The position numbers were made by a program, and so were the translations under genes. Shown here in pieces: positions 59,176 through 63,848 of a stretch of DNA of 64,000 nucleotides; positions within the stretch are counted from its first letter, which is position 1, and the number at the start of each line of letters is the position of its first letter. The notes beneath the pieces were generated by a model. That model was not told where the DNA came from. It was given only the letters and a program-made list of their open reading frames with translations, and did not search any database. Source of the stretch: a bacterium (GTDB lineage: Bacteria > Armatimonadota > Fimbriimonadia > Fimbriimonadales > Fimbriimonadaceae); the NCBI GenBank assembly GCA_013823945.1, contig PNMZ01000001.1, positions 62,001-126,000 on the forward strand. The letters run 5' to 3'.

Positions 59176-60192
59176 TCAAACGAGGTTTTCCAATTTCCCT
59201 CGCAAACTGTCCGCCCTCTGCCTCGCCGCAACTTCCGCGCTCTGAGTGCCAAAAACTTCCATTTCGGTGATCCACGCATCTACCTCCCGATGGTTCATCT
59301 CAAATCCGGAAAGATCCATCGCCGCTGCCCAACGCACATAGCCCAGAACAAGGAGAGCATCGCGCATCGTCATCTGCGCCGACATCACAGCAAATTCCGC
59401 CGCGCTCATTGCCTTCTCCCGAATCACATCTCGTGAAACCTCATCTCTCGCCAATCGCTCTTCTCGGATCAAATGTTGACAAGCCCCCACAAACTCACTA
59501 TCACTAATTTTGGTGGCTGAGACTTGAACAAAAGAAGCAACTCCTCGCGATGACTCACCAAATAAACCCCGCGTCGTCACACCCATGTGATGCATGGACT
59601 GAATCATCCTATTGAGTCGTCCCTGGGTTGCCAATCCCACCAAATGAAACAGTGCCGAACGTCGTTTTCCTCCGCCAAGATTGGTCGGACTCGCAGTCAA
59701 AAAACCTAACTCCGCAAGGTATTGAAAAGGAAGTTTCCGTCCCAAGTTCTCGGCAATCCGTTCCCCCTCCCGAACCGCTGTCTGAATAGACCAACCCGCA
59801 CTTACTGCCTGTATACGCAAGTGATCTTCCTCGTTGACCATGATGCTAACCAGTCTCTGTTCATCGAGTAACACCATACGACCCGGCGCCGAATGCTCAA
59901 ACTCCGGCGAAATCAGCCGCGCCCCCAAAAGATAATCTCGCTCGGCCTCCGTCACGTTGGATTGCGTTGAAAGGGCCATCCCATCCACTGCAGATCTCAC
60001 TCGATGGGCAACTTCAACCAAATCCGCATTCTCAGCCCGATGGGGATAGAAAAATCCCACCAAGTTCCGCGCAAGTCGATACCGACTCGATATAACAATA
60101 TCCCCCTCCGGCGCATCCGCCGCAAGCCAAGCCGGCGGTTGCATCGAGCGCAACACCATCTTTTTCCAAGCTTCCGAAGAACCGCCCGACAT
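59176..60192 (-). CDS. mcsB: McsB-like protein arginine kinase, catalytic Cys replaced by Ser
   Basis: The 338-residue ATP:guanido phosphotransferase has SSRYRLARNL, NEEDHLRIQ, LGFLTASPTNLGGGKRRSALFHL and TRGLFGESSRG. In known McsB the middle motif reads CPTNLGTG; here Ser replaces the conserved Cys and G-K replaces T-G. Arginine kinases of this type mark proteins for ClpCP. The mcsA, ctsR and clpC genes usually found beside it are absent. The frame and other motifs are intact, so it is likely active or a specialised form rather than a pseudogene. Confidence 0.88.
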   Translation of the reverse strand: MSGGSSEAWKKMVLRSMQPPAWLAADAPEGDIVISSRYRLARNLVGFFYPHRAENADLVEVAHRVRSAVDGMALSTQSNVTEAERDYLLGARLISPEFEHSAPGRMVLLDEQRLVSIMVNEEDHLRIQAVSAGWSIQTAVREGERIAENLGRKLPFQYLAELGFLTASPTNLGGGKRRSALFHLVGLATQGRLNRMIQSMHHMGVTTRGLFGESSRGVASFVQVSATKISDSEFVGACQHLIREERLARDEVSRDVIREKAMSAAEFAVMSAQMTMRDALLVLGYVRWAAAMDLSGFEMNHREVDAWITEMEVFGTQSAEVAARQRADSLRGKLENLV

Positions 60193-60591: not shown

Positions 60592-61089
60592 TTACACTTC
60601 GCCAAGTGCCAGACCAATCGCATCAACCGATGCCGTATCCCCTGCATCCCTGTCACGATGTTCCCACGTCACCTCCCCTGCTGAATTCAAAACAAAAGTT
60701 CCCGAGAGCTGCAACGGATCACCAACCGGTACCCCCACCCCATGCTTGCCCGCTCGAACCCCCGCTCGCCAAACATTTGGCCCAAAAAGCTGAACTAAAT
60801 TCCCCCGCTTCAATCCAAAAACGTCATACAGCCGCTTATCCGGATCACAGATAAATCTATGGGGAGATTCCATCTTCACCCGAAATTTCTCCGCTTCATC
60901 CGGCGAAGCCATGCAAACAAAAACGATATTCCAATCTGCTTTCTCACGTAGCACCGCCACGTGTTCCCGACAAAACGTTCATCCAAAATGGCGAAGAAAA
61001 ACCAACCCCACTGGTTTTTCAACGGCAATACTCCACAAAGAGACGCTCTCGCCTGAACTCAAAAGAACATCACGATTGTCAAAATTCAC
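60592..61089 (-). CDS. Peroxiredoxin-like selenoprotein (AhpC/TSA_2, SelU-like) with in-frame TGA
   Basis: A frame read through one TGA (60981-60979) gives a 165-residue thioredoxin-fold redoxin. Before the TGA come VEKPVGLVFLRHFG, then U37, then TFCREHVAVLRE. In the family the motif is FLRHFG-C-x-F-C-REHVA, so TGA stands exactly at the first redox Cys, giving U-x-x-C with Cys40. After it come RFICDPDKRLYDVFGL and LSGTFVLNSAGEVTWEHRD, as usual. Immediately after the TGA lies an 8-bp hairpin with a GGU loop, matching the bacterial SECIS pattern. The start is GTG 61089, 9 bases after the rpoD stop. A caller that treats TGA as stop would begin at GTG 60960 and lose the active site. A sequencing error (TGC to TGA) is the main alternative. 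Confidence 0.78.
60945..60963 (-). promoter_or_regulatory. Predicted bacterial SECIS hairpin
   Basis: CACGTGGCGGTGCTACGTG folds into an 8-bp stem (one G-U pair) with loop GGU. It begins 15 bases after the TGA, and the loop is 23 bases after it. Known bacterial SECIS elements have a loop with a G in the first positions at ~16-37 bases from the UGA. Confidence 0.7.
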
Positions 61090-61098
61090 GTCTAACTT

Positions 61099-62004
61099 CT
61101 ACGCAAGCAAAACTCCCGAATCACACTGTTTGAGCTTTTTCAATCCCCGTTGCTCAATCTGCCGCACTCGCTCCCGGGTGATCCGGAGTTGCTTCGCAAC
61201 TTCCTCAAGGGTCAATTGGAGTCCATCTCTCAAACCATAGCGTAGGTTAAGTACCTCGCGCTCTCGGTCATCAAGAATCTCCATCACCTCGCGCACCGTT
61301 TGACGCATGTGAGCCCGCTCCATCGCCACTCCCCCATGATCATCATCCGGAATAACATCCTGCAATGTCGAATCGTCTGTCCCTGTTAGTGGAGACTCTA
61401 ACGACATCGCATCCGGAACCATTTTTAGCATCTCTGCTACTTTGCCAACTTCAATATCCGCCGCCCGAGCAACTTCCTCCGCCGATGGATCACGTCCAAG
61501 CTCCATGGAGAGACGAGCGGCAATACGGCGCACTCTCATCGACCCTTCCACAACATGTACGGGCACCCGAATCAAGCGTGACTGATCACTAATCGCTCGA
61601 CTGATCGCCTGACGGATCCACCACGTCGCATAAGTAGAAAATCGAAACCCTTTATCCGAATCAAACTTCTCAACCGCCCGAATCAGCCCGATATTCCCCT
61701 CTTGGATCAAATCATCCAAACTCATCCCCCGCCCCGAGTATTTCTTCGCAATATTGACTACCAATCGGTAGTTCGCTTCAACCAATTTCCGACGACTGTC
61801 TTGGCACCCTTCGCCAATCGCCTGGGCCAAAACGGCCTCTTGTTCAGCAGTAAGCAAAGGGGTACGCCCCACCGTAGCCAACCACAGTTTCAAACTGTCG
61901 TCAACTTGCCCCCGGTCACCAGCATCGCCAGTCCCTCCATGTCCAACTGCAAATCCATTTGAAGACGCGCTCGTGCCAGTAAATTCACCATGAACCACTG
62001 CCAC
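61099..62004 (-). CDS. rpoD: Sigma-70 family RNA polymerase sigma factor, RpoD/SigA type
   Basis: The 301-residue sigma factor has region 1.2 ([19 protein letters not shown]), region 2 ([31 protein letters not shown]), region 3 (RVPVHVVEG...) and region 4 ([22 protein letters not shown]). Region 1.1 is missing. The place directly behind dnaG, as in the macromolecular synthesis operon, supports the housekeeping factor. The length and missing 1.1 leave a group 2 factor possible. The GTG start at 62004 lacks a strong ribosome site. Confidence 0.88.
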
Positions 62005-62081
62005 CCGATATGTCCCAGAGCAATCAAATGAGTGCCTAAATTGTTATATACACCACAATTATTCAAATTCCAAACAAAAAC

Positions 62082-63848
62082 TTACTCTTTTATCACACCC
62101 TTAATCTTCCGAAGCCGGTTCCCAATAGCCCTCAAAGCATCGTCATCCGAACTATTCCCGACTAACTCGGCTTGTTTCCGCGCCTCCCGTGCCTCAAGTT
62201 CTTTTCCCAAACGATCGACCGCATCCTCCAATGTTCGCCGCTCAATCGGCTCCGGATCCCCCATGCCCAGATCAAGTAGTACCAATTTCACCTCCTCGTC
62301 GGTCACGTCGTGTAGCCACTCAGATCCCGGTCGCGCCGTCCCAACTGCTTTCACAGAATTTGCTATCTTTCTCGCGATCTCCGACTTCATCAAAGGCTCA
62401 TGCCCCGCAAATTGCCACGCTTCTTCAAACAAGCTCGACGAAAACAAGCTCAAGAAGATAATCCGCTCCGCCCCCACCAATTCACTCGTACGCAACGGAA
62501 CCGCACGGTCCTCACGCTCCGGCAATGGCAGCCTCTCAACCCTCTCCGCAACCCCCTTTGATTTCGCCTTCTTCCGCTCAGCCGCAACCATCCTCTCAAG
62601 GGCTTTCGCCGCCGCTTGACGATCACGAATTCCCGGATACTGTGCCGCCACTGGAATCAAATATTTCTGCAATTCGAGGGGTGTTTCTGCCGTCGCAAGT
62701 ACCTGAACCACTTCCGTCCAATACCCATCGTCATCTGCCCCGAGCCGTTCGTTGAGCATCGCCATCCGAAAATCCATCGGGCTAACGCCATGCTCAACCG
62801 CAAGTCGCACCGCCTGCGGCCCTTGATCTCGCAACAGAGTGTCGGGATCCTCACCTTTCGGAGCTAAGGCAATCTTGACCGTCAGTCCCCCTGCTGCCAA
62901 AAGCTGAGCCGCCCGATCCGCCGCCTTTTTGCCTGCGTCATCAGCATCATAAAGCACAACAACCTTGCTGCACCAGCGCTTCAAAAGCCGCACATGTTCT
63001 TCTGCCAATGCTGTCCCTAGGCTTGCAATTGCTTCGGTCACCCCCGCCCGATGACAGGCAATCACGTCAAGATATCCCTCAACCAAAACTGCTTGGTCGT
63101 TCTTAGCAATCGTCTCCTTGGCCCGGTGCATCCCATAAAGAACTCGGCTCTTCGAATAAAGCGGAGTATCCGAACTGTTGATGTATTTGGGATTACCTTG
63201 TCCAACAATCCGCCCCCCAAAAGCGACAAGTTTGCCTCGCTCATCCCGAATGGGAAACATCAACCGACTACGAAATCGGTCATAAAATCCACCGCGCCCA
63301 TCCTGATCAACCAAAAAGAGGCTCTGCCCAAGAGTGAGCGAAATGCCCTTCTTCTTGAGTCGATAGGCCAATGCTTCACCCATACTGGGCCCAAATCCAA
63401 GCTCCCATTCATCAACAACTTTCTGATCAAGCCCCCGTTCCGCCAGGTACTTTTGTGCTTCCGAATCTTCCCGGAGTTGTTCGCGAAAAAACGCCTGGGC
63501 TTCGGCCATTGCCGCCTCCATTTGCTCATTCTCAGACTGGTCAGCTTTCTGAAATTCTGGAAGGTCAACGCCAGTCTGTTGCGCCAAAATCTTGAGTGCC
63601 TCAATGAAGTCAACCCGCTGGGTCTCCATCACCCAATTAAAAACATCACCCTTGGCTCCACAACTCCAACACCGGTAATGCCCGAATTCAGAAGAAACAA
63701 TAAAACTAGGGTTCCTATCATCATGAAACGGGCAGAGACCTTTCCAGTTTCTGCCCGCCTTCTTTAGCGCAACTCGTTGACCAACAAGATCAACCAAGTC
63801 CGCTCGGCGACGAATTTCATCTTTTGCACGATCTAAGTCGCCCGCCAC
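62082..63848 (-). CDS. dnaG: DNA primase DnaG
   Basis: The 588-residue enzyme makes RNA primers for replication. The CHC2 zinc finger (Cys39, His42, Cys60, Cys63) is at the N-terminus. The TOPRIM core has VLVEGYLDVIACHRAG and VVLYDADDAGKKAA. The C-terminal helicase-binding part is of moderate length. The start is GTG 63848, preceded by GGAGGT 14 bases earlier. Followed by rpoD after 77 bases. Confidence 0.96.
   Translation of the reverse strand: MAGDLDRAKDEIRRRADLVDLVGQRVALKKAGRNWKGLCPFHDDRNPSFIVSSEFGHYRCWSCGAKGDVFNWVMETQRVDFIEALKILAQQTGVDLPEFQKADQSENEQMEAAMAEAQAFFREQLREDSEAQKYLAERGLDQKVVDEWELGFGPSMGEALAYRLKKKGISLTLGQSLFLVDQDGRGGFYDRFRSRLMFPIRDERGKLVAFGGRIVGQGNPKYINSSDTPLYSKSRVLYGMHRAKETIAKNDQAVLVEGYLDVIACHRAGVTEAIASLGTALAEEHVRLLKRWCSKVVVLYDADDAGKKAADRAAQLLAAGGLTVKIALAPKGEDPDTLLRDQGPQAVRLAVEHGVSPMDFRMAMLNERLGADDDGYWTEVVQVLATAETPLELQKYLIPVAAQYPGIRDRQAAAKALERMVAAERKKAKSKGVAERVERLPLPEREDRAVPLRTSELVGAERIIFLSLFSSSLFEEAWQFAGHEPLMKSEIARKIANSVKAVGTARPGSEWLHDVTDEEVKLVLLDLGMGDPEPIERRTLEDAVDRLGKELEAREARKQAELVGNSSDDDALRAIGNRLRKIKGVIKE

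Follow-up and report, generated by a model that had tools for sequence, protein, structure and literature searches.

A probable bacterial SECIS hairpin behind the in-frame TGA of a SelL-related redox protein gene in Armatimonadota

The SelL-related gene and the Sec machinery

In the window, that is, the whole stretch of 64,000 nucleotides that was analysed, a gene for a SelL-related redox protein is located on the minus strand (60592..61089), where it extends over 165 codons from a GTG start with a TGA at codon 37 that is very probably read as selenocysteine (Sec). The TGA (60981-60979, minus strand) occupies the first Cys position of a U-T-F-C redox motif, and the resolving Cys of this UxxC, a motif found in most relatives, is encoded by a TGT codon (60970..60972, minus strand). 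When the TGA is read through, the local peptide is ...FLRHFG-U-TFC-REHVAVLRE..., and the homology of the gene product continues through the TGA. The protein matches NF040769, 'SelL-related redox protein', with 140.8 bits (curated cut-off 120) as well as the Pfam families AhpC-TSA_2 and AhpC-TSA, and its fold class is assigned on the basis of such family profiles; the closest solved structure by sequence is prostamide/prostaglandin F synthase, a weak match (E 0.002). The protein resembles the SelL/Prx-like and AhpC/TSA UxxC selenoproteins in that it scores above the NF040769 cut-off, carries UxxC and belongs to a family in which Sec and Cys forms exchange. The motif of SelL is UxxU, from which the UxxC of the window protein differs. 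A selenoprotein catalogue of 2026 names neither NF040769 nor SelL, and lists a UxxC Prx-like family (PF00578) and a UxxS AhpC/TSA family (PMC13188914). Four of the TGA homologues (L032, L099, L103 and L121) have Ala or Ser at the position of the second Cys of UxxC (UxFA, UxFS), and, judged by these motifs, their Sec would work without the usual resolving Cys.

The SelL-related gene directly follows dnaG and an RpoD-like sigma factor gene (60592-63848; 9 nt gap), and the locus is adjoined by a gene for a protein with an ATP:guanido phosphotransferase C-terminal domain (McsB-like; 59176-60192, minus strand). The order dnaG - sigma factor - SelL-related gene is common to the window and the sister species, Armatimonadetes bacterium Uphvl-Ar1, and dnaG or the sigma gene is found just upstream of the Sec or the Cys form in many genomes of the family (L016, L018-L047). 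As this gene order is common to both forms, the Sec and Cys forms appear to be orthologous within the family.

Homologues were collected from 291 genomes of Armatimonadota and 392 genomes of Planctomycetota, the phylum of a planctomycete relative, yielding 51 genes with TGA and 97 with Cys (47 and 90 after removal of near-duplicates). In the alignment, the column of the TGA holds Cys in 97 homologues and TGA in 50 others, so that one or the other is present in 148 of 148. The TGA might nevertheless be a true stop, either in a pseudogene or between two genes with re-initiation at GTG 60960, from which translation with table 11 yields a separate ORF of 122 amino acids. Against this, the sister gene (87% identical) has kept the TGA, although 30 codons differ between the two genes on its 3' side, 15 of them silently and with third positions predominating (9, 5 and 20 changes at the first, second and third codon position). 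Given also the TGA-or-Cys column, the gene order that both forms have in common in many relatives and the co-occurrence of the TGA with tRNA-Sec, a true stop is considered highly improbable.

The UGA at the Cys position of a redox protein occurs in a genome which encodes a complete Sec pathway, comprising SelA (433 bits), full-length SelB (349.6 bits), SelD (354.8 bits) and a tRNA-Sec with anticodon TCA (UCA; 73.2 bits). The selD gene itself has an in-frame TGA, in ...KCAG-U-ASKLG... (G000:C1:818864-819790, L091), which is followed by a rule-compliant hairpin of 9 bp with the loop GUU 33 nt after the UGA; the genome thus harbours one or more further selenoprotein genes with an element of this kind. 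Among the Armatimonadota, tRNA-Sec was detected in 16 of 17 genomes with the TGA form versus 27 of 55 with the Cys form only (p=7e-4), and among the Planctomycetota in 29 of 34 versus 8 of 36 (p=9e-8), which amounts to 45/51 versus 35/91 for both phyla. It was not detected in 6 of the 51 TGA genomes, at least one of which is only 73% complete. That a reassigned or suppressor tRNA reads the UGA as another residue, such as Trp or Cys, with the hairpin being irrelevant, found no support, the tRNA present being that for Sec; the column is otherwise always Cys, the Sec pathway is complete and hairpins track the TGA (see below), leaving this reading a negligible probability. Pseudogene, stop codon and reassigned code were considered and rejected.

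Shape and chance expectation of the hairpin

On the minus strand, the TGA is followed by a spacer of 15 nt (60978-60964, read from the sequence), the 5' arm of a stem, CACGTGGC (RNA CACGUGGC; 60963-60956), an apical loop GGT (GGU; 60955-60953), which starts 23 nt past the UGA, and the 3' arm GCTACGTG (RNA GCUACGUG; 60952-60945), the arms and the loop being supported by both sequence and folding. The stem of 8 bp includes one G-U pair and is unbroken, exactly as the first-pass annotation had described it, and the isolated hairpin has an MFE of -10.0 kcal/mol (z -3.0). Within a context of 56 nt it is the dominant local structure, while the region as a whole is unremarkable against shuffled sequences (z -1.27).

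Bacterial SECIS (bSECIS) elements are expected to have a loop of 3-9 nt, a stem of 4-16 bp, 16-37 nt between UGA and loop, an MFE of at most -7.5 kcal/mol and a G as the first or second loop nucleotide, usually as G[G/U] (PMC13188914). Compliance was scored with a hairpin scorer that was coded from these published constraints with one defect allowed, and the window element, with its 3-nt loop, 8-bp stem, GG at the loop start, 23-nt distance and -10.0 kcal/mol, lies within every range; the first-pass annotation had stated this for the G of the loop, the distance and the base pairs. With the consensus model behind bSECISearch it shares the site in the coding region, the 8-bp stem, the G[G/U]N-type loop and the distance of 23 nt (PMC13188914). 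It is nowhere outside this model, with the loop at the short end of the size range (3 nt) and a stem free of bulges. The SECIS of the E. coli fdhF type has an upper stem GCA-GGUC-UGC, a bulged U and a loop 18 nt after the UGA; the window element is similar to it in the small G-rich loop, the short stem and the location in coding sequence past the UGA, but differs in its loop, which is 5 nt farther from the UGA, and in its stem sequence. The bulged U of the E. coli-type upper stem is absent from the continuous 8-bp stem of the window element, and the general bSECIS model does not demand it.

The window contains 2495 TGA triplets, 18 of which (0.7%) are followed by a rule-compliant hairpin that is at least as good, and the share among random window positions is likewise 0.7%. 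When the peptide is recoded with synonymous codons, a hairpin this good arises in 0.2% of trials if only perfect stems are counted, in 5% if recoding is GC3-matched and in 9% if one defect is allowed. The hairpin is thus real and moderately unusual; since 0.7% of the TGAs in the window have one as good, it is, taken alone, suggestive of a SECIS element and not proof of one. It might be argued that the hairpin is an accident of a conserved peptide (C-R-E-H-V-A-x-L-R) and of codon usage, and that Sec is inserted at the TGA by means of another structure: the codons that form the hairpin encode conserved residues, and the 9% of recodings that score as well with one defect allowed point in the same direction. 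The comparison with homologues speaks clearly against such an accident, which is accordingly rated as very unlikely.

Hairpins in TGA- and Cys-containing homologues

The MFE of the whole region (48-56 nt past the UGA) was dropped as a discriminator (window z -1.27; TGA versus Cys p=0.007), and, because it discriminates only weakly, the rule-based hairpin score was used. The median score was 18.0 for the 47 TGA genes versus 10.5 for the 90 Cys genes (p=2.9e-12), and a score of at least 16 was reached by 32/47 versus 10/90. When the genes were recoded synonymously, the null expectation was strongly violated in the TGA genes (combined p 3.4e-12) and not in the Cys genes (0.73), in conflict with an accident of peptide and codon usage. 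The two sets differ in GC3 (0.82 versus 0.67), which was handled by GC3-matched recoding (combined p 2.5e-9 for TGA genes, 0.48 for Cys genes) and by using positions within the same gene as a control, where TGA genes again ranked better than Cys genes (p=1.7e-7). The protein tree requires 20 or more switches between Sec and Cys. Among 20 phylogenetically independent TGA/Cys pairs, most of them on weakly supported branches, the hairpin is better on the TGA side in 17 (Wilcoxon 7e-4); if only well-supported branches are used, 5 independent pairs are left, a number too small for significance. Both the scoring function, which was tuned, and the motif-matched comparison described below were chosen after part of the data had been seen, and the planctomycete set, fetched later, agrees. 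The hairpin is weak or placed differently in several TGA relatives, and in L050, L102, L109 and L121 a rule-compliant one is weak or absent.

The hairpin is kept where the gene has TGA and lost where it has Cys (p=3e-12, the synonymous nulls and 17/20 independent pairs). The first-pass annotation had named two outcomes that would refute its SECIS reading, loss of the hairpin in TGA relatives and equal frequency in Cys homologues, and neither was observed. Together, these sequence comparisons indicate that selection for the hairpin is tied to the TGA, beyond what protein sequence and composition account for.

Stem changes, loop register and proposed function

The exact stem of the window is retained in three of the sampled TGA relatives only (L019, L021 and L120), with the loop always 23 nt past the UGA. 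In L019, a U-A pair is changed to U-G and the loop is GGU; in L021 the same U-A to U-G change is accompanied by a GGA loop in place of GGU; and the planctomycete L120 has A-U replaced by C-G, C-G by U-G, and the loop GGA. Most of the TGA relatives with V-A-Q-L-R (Gln-type) have instead GCGC-AGUU-GCGC, a version with an AGNU loop at +25, which corresponds to a shift of 2 nt. Within this shifted class (n=15) the first three pairs do not vary. Pair 5 joins the third position of the codon that precedes GCG to the first position of the codon that follows CGC; it is C-G in 8 genes, G-C in 4 genes and A-U in 1 gene (permutation p=0.002), and pairs 4-8 jointly give a permutation p of 0.0017. Such compensatory changes, which had been proposed as a check, were thus looked for in the TGA homologues and found, and covarying pairs are a further argument against an accidental hairpin.

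The inner three pairs are formed in 16 of 16 TGA genes versus 1 of 8 Cys genes whose A-Q-L-R peptide is identical or almost so. In most of these A-Q-L-R Cys genes the inner stem is impossible because Ala is encoded by GCC or GCT, or because CAA or CTx is used. The doubt raised at first, that conserved residues alone might produce the hairpin, is therefore not borne out, as seven of these eight Cys genes lack the inner stem. The sole exception, L070 (G052), combines TGT with GCGC-AGUU-GCGU where the SECIS would lie, and no tRNA-Sec was detected in its genome; its hairpin is probably a relic of a recent change from Sec to Cys.

Based on these comparisons, the hairpin is very likely a genuine bSECIS element which directs Sec insertion at codon 37. 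The UGA would then encode the catalytic Sec of U-T-F-C in a SelL-related, peroxiredoxin-like oxidoreductase. By analogy to the known pathway, from which we infer SelB binding, the delivery and insertion of Sec and its redox function, SelB with Sec-tRNA-Sec(UCA) and GTP would bind the 8-bp stem and the GGU loop 23 nt downstream and deliver Sec to the A site, whereupon the ribosome would unwind the hairpin and read it as ...REHVAVLRE....

As both the type of element and the protein family are already known, the window hairpin is a good but ordinary example; a literature search of incomplete coverage brought up no earlier description of SECIS elements from Armatimonadota. Reading the TGA as Sec restores a gene that would be cut short by standard annotation, and contributes a SelL-related selenoprotein with UxxC from both Armatimonadota and Planctomycetota. 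In addition, the aligned Sec/Cys set (51 TGA, 97 Cys) allows gain, loss and register shift of SECIS elements to be traced against a fixed protein sequence. The most interesting by-product is the 2-nt register shift tied to the residue encoded under the loop. We see about an even chance that the SECIS loop has been displaced by 2 nt within one orthologous family, with V-A-Q-L-R having AGUU at +25 and V-A-(E/V)-L-R having GGU or GGA at +23 from other pairs, and that a codon swap under the loop forced functional refolding in the new register. If so, the register shift would represent a natural experiment on the flexibility of SelB recognition.

Other hairpins were noticed among the relatives. Some planctomycete TGA genes (L101, L106, L107 and L122) have a third type with the loop 18-19 nt past the UGA, for example GAGAUCG-UGAG-CGAUCUC. 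L114 (G409) has a SECIS-like hairpin, GUGGC-GCA-GGUC-UGC-A-GCCAC, with an A bulged out of its 3' strand, and its upper stem and loop match the E. coli fdhF element (GCA-GGUC-UGC).
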